64,000 nt of DNA, from NCBI GenBank assembly GCA_938085425.1, contig CALKGQ010000028.1:1-64000 (forward strand), in the 5' to 3' direction. Below are positions 27,109 through 56,575 of this stretch, in pieces; position 1 is the first letter of the stretch; the number at the start of each line of letters is the position of its first letter. The translations under genes and the position numbers were made by a program. Under the pieces are notes generated by a model that worked only from the letters and a program-made list of their open reading frames with translations, was not told where the DNA came from and did not search any database. The DNA is from an uncultured Flavobacteriales bacterium. Lineage in GTDB: Bacteria; Bacteroidota; Bacteroidia; Flavobacteriales_D; Sanyastnellaceae.

Positions 27109-28260
27109 TCAGTCGGCAAGCTCCAAGACCCCAAAGACCTTGGTCACTGCTTCCAATGCGGAATCAATGTCTGATTCGCTGGTGTAACGCGAGAATGAAA
27201 ACCGAACACTGGCCCTGGTCTCGTCATGGAAACCAAGGGCACGCAGGACATGTGATCCCGTGGTGGCCCCACTGGAGCAAGCACTGCCACCAGAGCAGGC
27301 GATGCCTTCCAAATCCAGCAAAAAAGTGGCCATGCCACCATTGGGGTGAGGTGGGAATTTCACGTTCAAAACCGTGTACAAATGGTCCTCTCCATCCGAG
27401 TGGCCGTTGAATTCAACACCGTCAATACGTTGCTTCAGCCCTTCCACCATTCGCCGCTTCAGCCCTCGGATGTGGGCCTCGTGGGGAACCATGTGGGCAA
27501 ACGCCTCATCAAATGCCTTGGTCAATCCCACAATGCCCGCAACATTCTCCGTCCCTCCGCGCATGGCCCGTTCTTGCCCCCCACCGACGATCATTCCTTC
27601 GATGCGAAGGGCCGGATTCGTGTAGAGAAAGCCCGTTCCCTTGGGGCCGTGGAATTTGTGGGCGCTGCACGCCAAAAAGTCGATGTTCAACTCCGACAAA
27701 TCCAGGGCGTAATGCCCCATGGTTTGAACTGTATCGCTGTGGAAGAGTGCGCCGTGCGCCTTGCACATCGCCCCCACCTTCCGGATGTCCAAAATCACCC
27801 CAACTTCATTGTTGGCATGCATCAAAGTCACCAAAGTTTTGGCTTGACTGTCGGAGAGCAGTTGTTCCAAATGGTCAAGGTCCACCCCCCCGTCAGGGAG
27901 GTGCTTCACATGGACCACCTCCACCCCTTCCTCTCCTGCATTCTGAGATGCCTTGATCACTGCACTGTGCTCCGCCTGTGAGGTGATGATGCGCGTCACC
28001 TTCAAGCAAGACACCGCAGCCCGCAGCGCATGGTTGTCCGCTTCCGTGCCTCCTGAGGTGAAACAAATGGAACGGGCAGGACAATTCAAGTGCTCTGCAA
28101 TCCTCCGCCGACTCGTTTCCACCAAGGCTTTGGCTTTTCTGCCCACAGCGTGGGAAGAAGATGGGTTGCCATGCACCGTTTGGTACACCTCCATCATGGC
28201 GGCCACCACTTCAGGTGCCACTGGCGTGGTGGCGGCATTGTCCAAATACACCATACTCAT
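27109..28260 (-). CDS. Cysteine desulfurase (NifS/IscS class V aminotransferase)
   Basis: 383 residues. It removes sulfur from cysteine with PLP to give a persulfide used for Fe-S clusters or thiolation. Motifs: MVYLDNAATTPV at the N-terminus; TSGGTEADNHAL; the PLP His in ITSQAEHSAV; the Schiff-base Lys in SAHKFHGPKGTGFLY; and the active-site Cys in the mobile loop IACSGGSACSSGATTGSHVLRALG. The long loop with SAC.SG places it in the NifS/IscS group. No IscU or SufU is adjacent. Two start ATGs, 28260 and 28254, are possible. Confidence 0.95.
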   Translation of the reverse strand: MSMVYLDNAATTPVAPEVVAAMMEVYQTVHGNPSSSHAVGRKAKALVETSRRRIAEHLNCPARSICFTSGGTEADNHALRAAVSCLKVTRIITSQAEHSAVIKASQNAGEEGVEVVHVKHLPDGGVDLDHLEQLLSDSQAKTLVTLMHANNEVGVILDIRKVGAMCKAHGALFHSDTVQTMGHYALDLSELNIDFLACSAHKFHGPKGTGFLYTNPALRIEGMIVGGGQERAMRGGTENVAGIVGLTKAFDEAFAHMVPHEAHIRGLKRRMVEGLKQRIDGVEFNGHSDGEDHLYTVLNVKFPPHPNGGMATFLLDLEGIACSGGSACSSGATTGSHVLRALGFHDETRASVRFSFSRYTSESDIDSALEAVTKVFGVLELAD

Positions 28261-46648: not shown

Positions 46649-48298
46649 ATGGACCGCATGAAAAAATCCTATTTGACTCTTCTGAATGTCGCTGTGGCAG
46701 CCATGGTCGGAGACGCTTGTGGTCAAGTCGAAGCTCCCACATTTGTCGATGTTGGGGCTGCCTCAGGGCTTTTGGCCGAGGGGCTGCACCATGCTGTGGC
46801 CATTGGAGATTACAACGGCGACGGATGGGAGGACTTGTATGTCGGGAGCAGATCCACTGGCAATTCTCTCTACCGGAACAATGGAGACATGACCTTCACC
46901 GAAGTGGGCGAAGAAGCAGGGGTGGCAGACGAAGGGTACACGAATGCGGCCATTTGGCTTGATTTTGACAACGACGGTGACCTTGACTTGGCCACGGGGA
47001 ATGGATATGCATTTGGCGGCAGTGAACCTGCCCCCAACCGATTCTACGTCAACCAGGGAGATGGAACGTTTGTCGACATGGCTGCCACCTTCGGGGTGGC
47101 AAGCACCTCGATGTGTCGCAGCCTGCATGCCGCGGACTATGACGGCGACGGCTTCACCGACCTCTATGTGGTGAATCTCAATTCGGCGAACCATTTTTAC
47201 AAAAACACCACGGGCCAAGGCTTCAGCAACGTCTACTTTCAAACAGGAACCGTGGACACAGGTGTCGGGATGGGGAGCATTTTCTTCGATTACGACAACG
47301 ACGGGGACCAAGACCTGTACCTCACCCACGACGCCAACCAGACCAACAAACTGTACCGCAACAACAACGACGGCACCTTTTACGATTTGGCCTTCCTCTC
47401 GGGATTGAATTACCAAGGAAATTGCATGGGGGTTGATGTGGCGGACATCAACCACGACGGCCATTTGGACTTGTACATCACAGACCTCTTCCCCAGCGCC
47501 ATGTTTGCCAACAATGGAGATGGCACCTTCGACGACATCAGCATTTTTTCCAGCACCAACGATTCTGGAATGACCTGGGGCTGCGTTTTCTTGGATTACG
47601 ACCACGACGGGGAATGGGATTTGTACCTGGTGAACGACTATCAATTTGCCCCCATCCCCAACATTCTGTACAAAGGCCAAGGCGACATGACCTTCTCCAA
47701 GGTGAGCGAAGGAGACCCCACTTTGGAACACCGTCATTCAGACTTTGGATTGGCCATGGGCGATTTGGACCGGGACGGGGACATGGACATGGTCATTGCC
47801 ACCACAAATTCCGACACCCAGCCCGGGCTCGCACTTTTGCGCAACGACGCCTCCATCAATGGCCATTGGCTTCAGGTCAAATTGATTGGGACACAAAGCA
47901 ACCGGGATGCCGTCGGGGCCCGCGCCATCCTTCATTTTGACGGAAAGACCCGAATGGACGAGGTCAACATTGGCCAAGGCTATTCCGGCGCCAGCACGTT
48001 GGATTTGCATTGGGGATTGGGGTGGAGCCCTGCCGTGGATTCCCTCGAAGTGCGATGGCCTTCAGGAGAAATCACCATGCACCACGAACTCGCCATCAAC
48101 ACCAGGCATGAAATTTGGGAGCCCACGAACTGCCTCGCCGATTTCGACTACGACTTTGCCCGCTCCTCTGGTGACTTGTTGGTGCTGCTCAGCGGGTTTG
48201 GCCAGTTTGGGACCCCCACCGACTTGGACGGTGACGGGGTCGTGGCCGCATCCGACCTGCTCGTGTTCCTGACCGTCTTTGGCACCTCCTGCGATTGA
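46649..48298 (+). CDS. Secreted FG-GAP/ASPIC-UnbV (CRTAC1-like) protein with dockerin-like tail
   Basis: 549 residues (546 from the ATG at 46658). After a signal peptide, about seven FG-GAP/VCBS blades with calcium loops run to residue 420, for example IGDYNGDGWEDLYVGS, LDFDNDGDLDLATGN, ADYDGDGFTDLYVV and FDYDNDGDQDLYLTHD; they should form an integrin-like propeller. Residues 425-490 are an ASPIC/UnbV domain (VGARAILHFDGKTRMDE, DSLEVRWPSGE). The last 55 residues are two EF-hand-like Asp loops with Leu-rich helices (SSGDLLVLLSGFGQFGTPTD, then LDGDGVVAASDLLVFLTVFG), a dockerin-like module also found in the esterase at 53129. No type A or B T9SS tail is seen. Function: extracellular binding or attachment. 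Confidence 0.9.
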   Translation: MDRMKKSYLTLLNVAVAAMVGDACGQVEAPTFVDVGAASGLLAEGLHHAVAIGDYNGDGWEDLYVGSRSTGNSLYRNNGDMTFTEVGEEAGVADEGYTNAAIWLDFDNDGDLDLATGNGYAFGGSEPAPNRFYVNQGDGTFVDMAATFGVASTSMCRSLHAADYDGDGFTDLYVVNLNSANHFYKNTTGQGFSNVYFQTGTVDTGVGMGSIFFDYDNDGDQDLYLTHDANQTNKLYRNNNDGTFYDLAFLSGLNYQGNCMGVDVADINHDGHLDLYITDLFPSAMFANNGDGTFDDISIFSSTNDSGMTWGCVFLDYDHDGEWDLYLVNDYQFAPIPNILYKGQGDMTFSKVSEGDPTLEHRHSDFGLAMGDLDRDGDMDMVIATTNSDTQPGLALLRNDASINGHWLQVKLIGTQSNRDAVGARAILHFDGKTRMDEVNIGQGYSGASTLDLHWGLGWSPAVDSLEVRWPSGEITMHHELAINTRHEIWEPTNCLADFDYDFARSSGDLLVLLSGFGQFGTPTDLDGDGVVAASDLLVFLTVFGTSCD

Positions 48299-53128: not shown

Positions 53129-54319
53129 CTATCCACAAGGAGTTCCAAACACCCCCAAGAGGACCAAAACGTCTGTCACAGTCACCGCGCCATCGGCATC
53201 CAAGTCGGACGAACAAAAGCTGCCACATCCAAAATCAGCGAGCAGCAGCAGCAAATCCTCCACGGCCACCGTGCCGTCCAAGGACAAGTCCCCAGAACAT
53301 CCGACAGCGGGAGGCGCATCCACATCATAGTACGCGGGAATGGACGGGTACTGCGGACAAACTTGTTGGCTTGTGAAGGACATCACCGCAGCCCTCGTCA
53401 CGTCGTAGGCCTGGGCATCCGTCATGTGGGGGACGTGGCCCTCTCCTTCCAAGGCTGTGAATGCATGGGGCACCCCCACTTCTTCCGCCTGAATGTGGAT
53501 GGGCCAACTCCCGTCCACTTGGGTCACATTGAGTCCGAGCAACTGCACCATGCCTGTGCCAAAAGGCACGACGTTGTCCTGGGTGCCATGGGTGGACACA
53601 ATGCCTGCATCGCCCGGTTCCATCCAGTCTGCATCGCCCAAGGCACCTGAAATATTGATGATGGACAGCACGTCTGAAGGGTAACCCGGATGGCCGCTTT
53701 CTCCCTCCAAACCTCCCTGCAGGCCAGGTTGGGTAAGGTCGATGACATCCGGCACCTCGGCCAAGTCATCGATGTAGGCAGAGTGCAAGGCGATGAAGGC
53801 TCCAGCGGAAGATCCCCCAAGGACCACCCGTTGAGGGTCGATGCCCCATGGATTGCCGTCCAGCGTATGAGATTCACGAAAGAATCGGATGGCCGCCTTC
53901 GCGTCATGGACCCCACGCAACACCGCTTCGAGAAGCGAAGTTTCCAGGTCGAAGAAATTGTCAATGCCCAACCGGTAACTGATGCTGACTGCCACATAGC
54001 CCATGCGCGCCAAATCTTCGCAAAGCGGAACCACATCCGTCCCGTCTTTGCTCCCCGCCAGAAAAAACCCTCCATGGGCCAAAATGACCAGAGGCCGCTC
54101 CTCTTCTCCATCGTTGGCGGGCCTGTAGATGTCCATGCGCAATTCCTCATTGGCACCTGAAGCCCCCACATTGGCGCCATACAAGACATCGGTGTCGACA
54201 ATGATCTCCTCAAAAATCCGATACCGGTAGCGTGCCCCATCGCATTGGGCCCACATTTGGGAGCCCATCAGCAAGAGCGAAATGGGCAACAACAACCTCA
54301 CAAAAAACCCTTGAGCCAT
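53129..54319 (-). CDS. Secreted alpha/beta hydrolase (esterase) with dockerin-like C-terminal module
   Basis: 396 residues, ATG at 54319 (MAQGFFVRLLLPISLLLMGSQMWAQ), signal peptide. Alpha/beta hydrolase fold: oxyanion motif AHGGFFLAGSKDG, MGYVAVSISYRLG, nucleophile elbow GGSSAGAF (Ser near residue 170), acid region STHGTQDNVVPFG and catalytic His region EVGVPHAFTALEGEGH. Residues 345-396 are dockerin-like: CSGDLSLDGTVAVEDLLLLLADFG and SDLDADGAVTVTDVLVLLGVFG, paired Asp loops as in the FG-GAP protein at 46649. Likely a carboxyl esterase on extracellular polymers; substrate unknown. A 7-bp inverted repeat covers the sequence just before the ATG. Confidence 0.88.
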   Translation of the reverse strand: MAQGFFVRLLLPISLLLMGSQMWAQCDGARYRYRIFEEIIVDTDVLYGANVGASGANEELRMDIYRPANDGEEERPLVILAHGGFFLAGSKDGTDVVPLCEDLARMGYVAVSISYRLGIDNFFDLETSLLEAVLRGVHDAKAAIRFFRESHTLDGNPWGIDPQRVVLGGSSAGAFIALHSAYIDDLAEVPDVIDLTQPGLQGGLEGESGHPGYPSDVLSIINISGALGDADWMEPGDAGIVSTHGTQDNVVPFGTGMVQLLGLNVTQVDGSWPIHIQAEEVGVPHAFTALEGEGHVPHMTDAQAYDVTRAAVMSFTSQQVCPQYPSIPAYYDVDAPPAVGCSGDLSLDGTVAVEDLLLLLADFGCGSFCSSDLDADGAVTVTDVLVLLGVFGTPCG

Positions 54320-54338
54320 GTGATGAAGGTACATCACA
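54319..54338. promoter_or_regulatory. Inverted repeat abutting the esterase start codon
   Basis: TGTGATG (54319-54325) and CATCACA (54332-54338) separated by AAGGTA. It sits directly 5' of the esterase ATG and overlaps a weak TACCTT element, so it could be an operator or an mRNA hairpin hiding the start. Confidence 0.35.
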
Positions 54339-54376
54339 CCGCCCAAGGGTGTTCAGGAAACGAAGGGGGGCAGTCG

Positions 54377-56575
54377 TTACTGGATGGCCAAGCGCTTGCT
54401 GGCCGTTTGGCCATTGGGCAAGGTCAACGCCAGGTGGTACATGCCAGACGACAATCCGCCAAACGCCAATTGCACAGCACTTCCTTGACGCCACTGGGTC
54501 ACATCCACCTCGCGTCCACTGGCGTCCATCAAAGAAAGGACCGCATCTGCAGGCACTCCTTGCACCCAAACTTGATCTCGGGCAGGGTTGGGCATCACGT
54601 TCCATTCGACGAATCGAGCATCCGACACCCCATCCGCACCCGTCACAGCGTTGACGATGGCTCGGAATTCTTGGTGGTACAAGTTGGCCACCCTTGCGCT
54701 GTGGACAATCACTGTGTTTTCATCGTTCACCGTTTCTGCTGTGGAAGACCAATTGTGAGATCCTGTGATCACCAATGGGTCTGTGCCGACTTCGCTGTGG
54801 TCGATGATGCAGTACTTGTGGTGCAAGTCCCCACTCAAATCATGGTGGTACACCTGCACCCCGTTGGCGATCAAGTTGTCAAATTCACTGCCCGTTGTGT
54901 TGACCTGCTCAATGACGCCAATGGGGCTGACAAAGAAGCTCTGGTTCAGGTCAACGATGGCCTCTCCAAGGTCGTCCCGCGTCAATGTGAGCAAGGCGAA
55001 CTCCATGTCCGCGTTGGCCGCATCGATTTCTTTTTGGATGGCGGCAGTCGTGCCGTCGGACGGCGAGAAGTACAAATCAACTTCATGGCCACCGATCAAA
55101 AAGTCGACTGGCGTGTTCCACGTCTTTTCGGCGCCAAACTTTGCATTCGAAGGGTCGGGGGTCATGCCTTCCGCGCCCCACATCTCCTCAAATTCCAACT
55201 CGTAGGCCCTGGCCAAACTTTGGTCTTCGAAGATGATCACGTCGTTCAAATCACTGACCAAGTTGCCCGTGGTCAGGTTCGTGGATCCCGTCAAGACAAA
55301 GGCCAAATCGGCATGGTCGGCATCGGCGATGATGAACTTGTTGTGCATGCCACTGCCGTCGCCGTCCGTCCTTGGGTGCGTCACCACAGATGCGTCCAAG
55401 CTTCCAAGGCCTGTGTTCGCATTTTGACCTTCGTAGATCCAACGGATTTGGACACCGTTGGAAGCGGCCGTGTTGAAGGCTGCAGCAAGCGTTTGGTCGT
55501 TGAAGTTGTAGGCTGCGACATCCAATGTGTGCTGGGCGCTGGTGATCCAGGCCGCCACGGTGTCGTTCATGTCGGTGCCAAGGGACAAGGCCAGCTCGTC
55601 CGTGGCCACGCTGTGGTCGACGGCGCCATTGAAGTAGACATGGATGTCACCGCTGCTCTCGGACACGGTGGCATAAGGGCGAATCTGAGAAGTCGCAGAC
55701 GCACCATCTGCTGTGGTGCAAACTGCCCTCGCGTAGTAAATGCTGCCGGCATCAAGCCCCACCAAATCCACAAAGTGACTTGGGGTGTTCAATTGCAAGG
55801 CCTCTGCGACAAAACCCAAATCTGGGGTCGGGCCATATTCCACGGAACCGTCGCACGCCAAGTCTGTGGTCCAAGACAGGCGAAATCCGTCTGTGGCCAA
55901 ATTGGTCTGGCTGACCGGAGAGGTGAAGCACAGGTCCGCTGCAGGAATCAAATCCACTGGTCCCCGGGGCAACAATTGGTAGCCCCCAAAACCATCGAAA
56001 GAAAACTGCGAAACGATGCCGATCATGTCAATTTCGCAGCCGGTGAGTTCCTCTCCGACAAGGCTGTTGCTTGTGCGTACATACATGATGCCATAGGCCC
56101 CATCCGCCTGAAAATCATAGGTGGCATTGCCCGCAATGAAGGTGCCTGCCAAGGGGAACGTCACCCCATTGACGCGCACGAGCTGCCCTTCAAGGCTTTC
56201 GTCCATGGCATCCGGCGCGATTTCCAAGGGCTCGGGCACTGTGCCCGTCCCGAAGAACTGCACAGATGTCAAATTGGGTCCAACTTCAAGCAGGCCGTTG
56301 TACTCTGTGATTTCACCGGTGACCGTGAGGCTGTCCCCAATTTCTGGGGTGGCATCCCAATCCGACCAGTCTTCTCCCGGATAAAGGGCGATGCCGGCTG
56401 TGGCATCCTGCAAGTAGCGCACGGAACCGAGGTTGTCGTCGCTGGTCACCACGCCTGTCACTGTGACGGTTTGACCAATGTTGTAATTCTCGCGCATGTC
56501 GAGAATGTTGTCTTGGGCCACCGCTTGTGCAGCGAACACCAGGGCCGCAAGGGCCAAATTCGTTTTCAAATTCAT
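54377..56575 (-). CDS. T9SS-secreted phospholipase D-like protein with OB and FnIII domains
   Basis: 732 residues with a signal peptide (MNLKTNLALAALVFAAQAVAQ). Residues 25-210 hold OB-fold-like repeats (QTVTVTGVVTSDDNLGSVRYLQD, GDSLTVTGEITEYNGLLEVGP) often found in extracellular nucleases. Residues 222-305 are a fibronectin III domain. Two HKD motifs follow: HNKFIIAD starting at His411 and HHKYCIID starting at His585, each with a GS.N(L/W)(T/S) segment after it, as in PLD enzymes. The last 75 residues are a type A T9SS sorting domain (NVMPNPARDQVWVQG ... SSGMYHLALTLPNG). PLD-like phosphodiesterases cut phospholipids or nucleic acids; which is unclear. It overlaps the TonB receptor stop by 4 nt. 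Confidence 0.92.
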   Translation of the reverse strand: MNLKTNLALAALVFAAQAVAQDNILDMRENYNIGQTVTVTGVVTSDDNLGSVRYLQDATAGIALYPGEDWSDWDATPEIGDSLTVTGEITEYNGLLEVGPNLTSVQFFGTGTVPEPLEIAPDAMDESLEGQLVRVNGVTFPLAGTFIAGNATYDFQADGAYGIMYVRTSNSLVGEELTGCEIDMIGIVSQFSFDGFGGYQLLPRGPVDLIPAADLCFTSPVSQTNLATDGFRLSWTTDLACDGSVEYGPTPDLGFVAEALQLNTPSHFVDLVGLDAGSIYYARAVCTTADGASATSQIRPYATVSESSGDIHVYFNGAVDHSVATDELALSLGTDMNDTVAAWITSAQHTLDVAAYNFNDQTLAAAFNTAASNGVQIRWIYEGQNANTGLGSLDASVVTHPRTDGDGSGMHNKFIIADADHADLAFVLTGSTNLTTGNLVSDLNDVIIFEDQSLARAYELEFEEMWGAEGMTPDPSNAKFGAEKTWNTPVDFLIGGHEVDLYFSPSDGTTAAIQKEIDAANADMEFALLTLTRDDLGEAIVDLNQSFFVSPIGVIEQVNTTGSEFDNLIANGVQVYHHDLSGDLHHKYCIIDHSEVGTDPLVITGSHNWSSTAETVNDENTVIVHSARVANLYHQEFRAIVNAVTGADGVSDARFVEWNVMPNPARDQVWVQGVPADAVLSLMDASGREVDVTQWRQGSAVQLAFGGLSSGMYHLALTLPNGQTASKRLAIQ

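Follow-up and report, generated by a model that had tools for sequence, protein, structure and literature searches.

Two exported proteins encoded in the window, the whole 64,000-nucleotide stretch of DNA analysed here, end in similar modules with two Asp loops, and neither carries a usual tail of the type IX secretion system (T9SS). The locus raises the question of whether these modules form a separate sorting or docking signal and, if so, what receives them. The original prediction suggested a possible signal with its own receptor, perhaps a cohesin-like one. The two proteins and their tails are arranged as follows:

46649..48298, + strand: P0001, exported FG-GAP/ASPIC-UnbV protein of 549 aa (Pfam FG-GAP_3, E 2.4e-48; UnbV_ASPIC, E 3.7e-15)
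48131..48295, + strand: two-repeat dockerin-fold tail of P0001, residues 495-549, with the stop at 48296-48298 (NF041540, 22.9 bits; genome-wide matches)
48140..48175, + strand: calcium loop 1 of P0001, DFDYDFARSSGD, degenerate at position 6 (sequence; family loop statistics)
48221..48256, + strand: calcium loop 2 of P0001, DLDGDGVVAASD (sequence; family loop statistics)
53129..54346, - strand: P0002, exported BD-FAE/carboxylesterase-family protein (Pfam BD-FAE, E 3.5e-15; COesterase, E 1.1e-11), with the stop at 53129-53131
53132..53299, - strand: two-repeat dockerin-fold tail of P0002, in which all four Cys are present (NF041540, 26.5 bits; AlphaFold2; PDB 2y3n_B)
53255..53290, - strand: calcium loop 1 of P0002, DLSLDGTVAVED (sequence; loop statistics)
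53171..53206, - strand: calcium loop 2 of P0002, DLDADGAVTVTD (sequence; loop statistics)

The tails are 55-56 residues long, and each contains two 12-residue D...D loops, with a short Leu-rich helix after each loop, and closes with the common motif FGT.C. Tails of about 55 residues with two Asp loops were thus confirmed on both proteins at the coordinates listed above. The motifs DLDGDG and DLDADG, which had been quoted for the two loops, are present, but each comes from the second loop of its protein; the first loops are DFDYDFARSSGD in P0001 and DLSLDGTVAVED in P0002. The P0001 tail has the outer Cys pair and lacks the linker pair. On visual inspection, the N-terminus of P0001, MDRMKKSYLTLLNVAVAAMVGDACGQ, looks like a signal peptide that would place Gln at +1; the crude rule used below misses it. 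P0002 is likely to start at the ATG at 54334 or 54319, and its signal peptide ends in ...QMWAQ, followed by C.

The fold of the tail was examined using an AlphaFold2 model of the P0002 esterase tail (model A4; 38 input sequences from the window and related loci), which had a pLDDT of 90.1 and a pTM of 0.76. The best Foldseek match was the type II dockerin 2y3n_B (TM 0.84/0.86). The same chain was the top match in VIA-align (Z 10.8, rmsd 1.4 over 59 residues), and 24 of the 24 chains in the VIA table came from cohesin/dockerin or scaffoldin entries; the absence of a match carries no weight in either search. Profile A1, built from an alignment of 18 tails from the same genome, also matched the solved dockerin 2y3n_B by sequence (E 3.8e-7). 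Since 2y3n_B was matched by profile A1 and was the best match in Foldseek and VIA-align, and all VIA chains were from cohesin, dockerin or scaffoldin entries, the modeled tail module is a true dockerin fold, with two calcium F-hand loops, Asp at positions 1 and 12, the helix and the dockerin packing. D5 is nearly universal across the parsed tails; the parser, which accepted 113 of 115 tails, demands D1 and D12. Helix and loop positions 10, 14, 17 and 18 are conserved across unrelated protein bodies and phyla, and part of this conservation is due to the fold.

The domain is already named in NCBIfam as the GC-type dockerin, NF041540. For both window tails the alignment spanned most of this model, although the scores listed above did not reach its cut-off of 29 bits (15.8 and 22.8 bits for the whole proteins P0001 and P0002). 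It matched 17 of the 18 A1 tails at E<=1. Like the GC-type dockerin, the tails are C-terminal two-repeat dockerins with terminal Cys, and Phycisphaerales copies were found together with them. Unlike it, many of the modules are half-modules and most carriers score below the cut-off, with about 2 of 43 genome carriers reaching E<=1.2e-6, which corresponds roughly to 29 bits. The Pfam Dockerin_1 and EF-hand models matched the tails weakly. For PF00404 (Dockerin_1, cut-off 22.9 bits), single matches in the same genome scored at most 20.8 bits, the P0001 tail 13.1 bits, and a few carriers reached 22.9-25.2 bits with neighbors. The literature searched contained no paper on the GC-type dockerin and named no partner or function for it; judged by titles and abstracts, the publications on dockerins and type IX secretion held nothing evidently about the tail module. 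As far as could be found, a tail class that stands opposite to T9SS, its Cys pairing and the missing cohesin are undescribed.

The cysteines follow a regular pattern. Of 113 distinct tails that were parsed, drawn from Bacteroidota and Planctomycetota, 112 have either no Cys or two in the linker, and in 110 the N- and C-terminal Cys occur together or are missing together (Fisher p 8e-8, with shared ancestry ignored). Losses occur in both phyla, and at least one of the exceptions, L105, looks like a parsing error. The simplest reading of this sequence pattern is that the module would form two disulfides, one between the first and the last Cys, which would staple the module ends, and one within the linker pair.

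Genome-wide searches placed the two window proteins in a much larger set. The P0001 tail alone gave 50 matches in the 2.07-Mb genome, the P0002 tail among them at E 2.4e-6, and profile A1 gave 59 matches, 23 of which had E below 1e-15. The 59 matches fall in 55 ORFs, 44 with the module at the C-terminus (0-6 residues from the end) and approximately 11 with an N-terminal or internal module. About 23 of the 44 C-terminal modules have two repeats and about 20 a single repeat. Both window proteins carry the module, as predicted, but rather than being confined to two secreted proteins it defines a genome-wide tail class of about 55 copies. A coincidence between two proteins was rejected based on these 50-59 matches. 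The bodies of the carriers include reprolysin-type, M43 and S8 peptidases, esterases, arylsulfotransferase, FG-GAP, MopE and LTD proteins; NCBIfam places two of the carriers in "choice-of-anchor" families.

Eight of the approximately 11 proteins with N-terminal or internal repeats end in Ala-Glu (RCVRDAE, PYWSEAE, WKYAE), an ending seen in one other of 307 ORFs examined. These are located at G000:C13:7691, 8736, 9433 and 10865, C14:38660, C17:26332, C51:296 and C56:3196 (loci L021, L025, L057, L058 and L028). Some share a FISUMP-like C-terminal region, which is absent in others. A second half-module match at G000:C17:2711-3038 lies in another frame just past a tail carrier, and may be the displaced end of a gene.

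Signal peptides were assigned with a crude rule of our own, counted over 5'-complete ORFs and scored alike for the classes compared. The rule was passed by 32 of 39 C-tail ORFs and 37 of 43 T9SS type A ORFs, as compared to 23 of 112 other ORFs. An AxA/Q signal peptide, with Gln following the AxA motif, was present in 29 of 39 C-tail and 31 of 43 type A ORFs versus 5 of 112 others. Six of the seven C-tail ORFs that failed the rule show a signal peptide by eye, and the seventh (C17:2973), a frame of 159 aa, looks like a displaced fragment. Signal peptides, which the prediction had called for on tail carriers, are thus seen, by the rule or by eye, on all 5'-complete C-tail ORFs but this one, and the possibility that the carriers are cytoplasmic was rejected. 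Gln at +1 agrees with the Q-rule described for substrates of signal peptidase I in Bacteroidetes; the authors of the rule do not regard it as a generic sorting signal (PMC5837995). Two further candidates were discarded. Lipoprotein anchoring was rejected based on a lipobox-like match in 1 of 39 ORFs, and type II secretion because no Pfam secretin was detected in the window's genome, so that no type II path through the outer membrane is evident.

The tails were then compared with those of T9SS, of which the genome encodes 46 of type A and 13 of type B over cut-off, along with a SprA-like translocon gene (a SprA match at a contig edge). None of the 53 module ORFs matched TIGR04183 (type A) or TIGR04131 (type B). 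This result agrees with the claim that P0001 and P0002 lack a usual T9SS tail, extends it to the other carriers, and argues against a type A or B tail in disguise, which was rejected. A paralogue with a T9SS tail (>=40% identity over >=250 aa) was found for 13 of the 44 C-tail proteins. Esterase copies have the dockerin tail in the window's genus and in genus g14, and a type A tail in other genera and in a paralogue from the window's own genome. In a maximum-likelihood tree of the esterases, the ten dockerin-tailed copies formed one clade (support 100/98), with the T9SS-tailed sequences, including those of another family, on the other side, and 0 of 500 shuffles gave a value as low. A single replacement of the tail is therefore sufficient. 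Among the homologues of P0001, those of family f1 end in dockerin tails and those of another family, f8, in type A tails. A further case involves a gene beside P0002:

54377..56575, - strand: neighboring exported protein with a T9SS type A tail at 54380-54598 (TIGR04183, 28.4 bits, over cut-off)

This protein is 76.5% identical over 626 aa to the G000:C17 ORF ending at 27390 (+). Instead of a type A tail, the C17 copy has DDGSC repeats, a dockerin-like repeat and a region resembling FISUMP at its C-terminus. The pair is another natural tail swap. Exclusion and replacement of T9SS tails is the behavior expected of a separate terminal sorting or docking module.

The module is widespread in the family and almost missing from other families of the order. 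Profile A1 was positive in 34 of 36 sampled genomes of the same family, mostly with dozens of copies, and found nothing in two genomes of genus g3; outside the family, 1 of 23 genomes was positive, at a marginal E. The scan of genome contigs, for which a tighter four-sequence profile was used, identified the module in metagenome-assembled genomes of marine Flavobacteriales and in Phycisphaerales/Planctomycetota. Loci L076 and L109 (PBNL01), titled Euryarchaeota archaeon SP189, carry a Flavobacteriales-type module, which suggests that the title or the bin is probably wrong.

A dockerin fold directs attention to cohesins. The Pfam cohesin model PF00963, the one model on which these absences rest, had no match in the window's genome at E<=10, nor in five other members of the genus tested at E<=0.1. 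Among 61 genomes of the family, 17 had a match at E<=0.1 and 5 a match over cut-off, and the matches that were read lie mostly in ORFs ending in T9SS type A tails. Across the 32 genomes with both counts there was no positive association between cohesins and tails, and 16 of the 18 genomes with at least 20 tails had no cohesin match at E<=0.1. The relative G018 encodes a protein (L252:6526-8379, - strand) of scaffoldin-like layout, in which four cohesin-like modules in tandem (PF00963, 52.2 bits; cut-off 24.1) lie between a signal peptide and the same dockerin-fold tail; its gene adjoins that of another tail carrier. A profile of its cohesin modules had no further match in 1.26 Mb of loci, and no homologue of the protein was found in stretches covering part of the window's genome. 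Several T9SS type A proteins from relatives (loci L249 and L253-L264), with lengths of about 1,000-1,330 aa, match the cohesin model weakly, in some cases twice, whether their genomes have few tails or many; some of these proteins have an internal dockerin-like repeat in between. No cohesin-bearing scaffoldin was thus identified in the window's genome. A cohesin partner may exist in the G018 lineage, but with the present models cohesins cannot serve as a general explanation of the tails. The fold, the signal peptides and the exclusion and replacement of T9SS tails are consistent with the predicted sorting or docking signal, but the cohesin-like receptor was not borne out for the window's genome. 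Because none is detectable, the receptor in this genus is probably not a canonical cohesin.

Taken together, the reading that we consider to have about an even chance of being correct is that the tail is a calcium-binding, disulfide-stapled and interchangeable terminal module that anchors or docks exported proteins through a shared, non-canonical receptor. The proteins would be exported by Sec across the inner membrane and cleaved by signal peptidase I, with Gln at +1. In the periplasm, the tail would fold with calcium and form its disulfides, and the folded tail would bind a receptor common to many such proteins. Receptor binding would bring the protein to the cell surface or into a surface complex, replacing the export and anchoring directed by the T9SS C-terminal domain (CTD). 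The approximately 20 one-repeat tails and 11 N-terminal or internal modules fit poorly with a fixed C-terminal sorting signal. Furthermore, the conserved final residues could reflect folding and not recognition, and the loss of a T9SS tail could mean that the protein had turned periplasmic instead. More tentatively, the tails may constitute a second surface-targeting system independent of T9SS, in which a dedicated receptor that is not itself a recognizable cohesin captures them and proteins have moved between the two systems by tail exchange. We regard this as possible but clearly less probable.

It is unlikely that the stapled module is only a structural cap, stabilizing the chain end outside the cytoplasm with no receptor. 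The putative end-to-end disulfide suggested by Cys co-occurrence, the half-modules and N-terminal copies, and the fusion to very different bodies are all consistent with a cap; the strict exclusion and replacement of T9SS tails would be unexpected of a neutral cap, and the conservation of positions 10, 14, 17 and 18 also speaks against it, although this partly reflects the fold. Two other explanations appear less probable still, and about equally so. The exchange of dockerin and type A tails on homologous bodies, the SprA-like gene and the lack of a detected secretin or type II route would all suit an unusual third class of T9SS signal, by which the T9SS machinery recognizes the dockerin tail and exports the protein. 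However, structurally analyzed T9SS CTDs are Ig-like beta-sandwiches (PMC11285876), unlike the two-helix calcium-loop fold of the tail, and the module occurs also at protein N-termini and in Phycisphaerales, leaving aside the presence of T9SS there. A classical non-cellulosomal cohesin-dockerin system, with tails plugged into the cohesins of a surface scaffoldin, would account for the G018 protein beside a tail carrier and for the nearest fold, that of a dockerin whose structure was determined together with a type II cohesin. Against it stand the failure to detect PF00963 in the window's genome and five genus members, the tail-rich genomes without cohesins and the isolation of the G018 module profile.

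Compared to known systems, the tail shares with the cellulosomal type II dockerin 2y3n_B of Bacteroides cellulosolvens the fold and the two 12-residue loops with Asp at 12. It differs in that the identity is only about 30%, that two disulfides are proposed here, that the genome has no detectable cohesin, and that the carriers include peptidases, esterases, FG-GAP and MopE proteins, not cellulases. The "planctosome" proposed for freshwater Planctomycetes consists of non-cellulosomal cohesin/dockerin proteins with cohesins as the proposed partners (PMC6461901); its M12B reprolysin-type peptidases and LTD domains are also represented among the carriers here, but its cohesins have no detectable counterpart in the present genome. 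The T9SS type A domain (TIGR04183/PF18962) is likewise terminal on Sec-exported proteins and exchanged on homologous bodies, but it shows no sequence match and is a beta-sandwich rather than a helix-loop structure.

T9SS tails and lipoproteins are the usual explanation for surface display in Bacteroidota. In this family of marine species, the carriers of a dockerin-fold tail are about as numerous as those of a T9SS type A tail, and the two have been exchanged between related proteins, the esterase pair being a notable natural swap. Should the tails have a receptor in common, they would form a dockerin system independent of cohesins. If they do not, a large set of non-cellulosomal "dockerin" annotations still need not imply cohesins.
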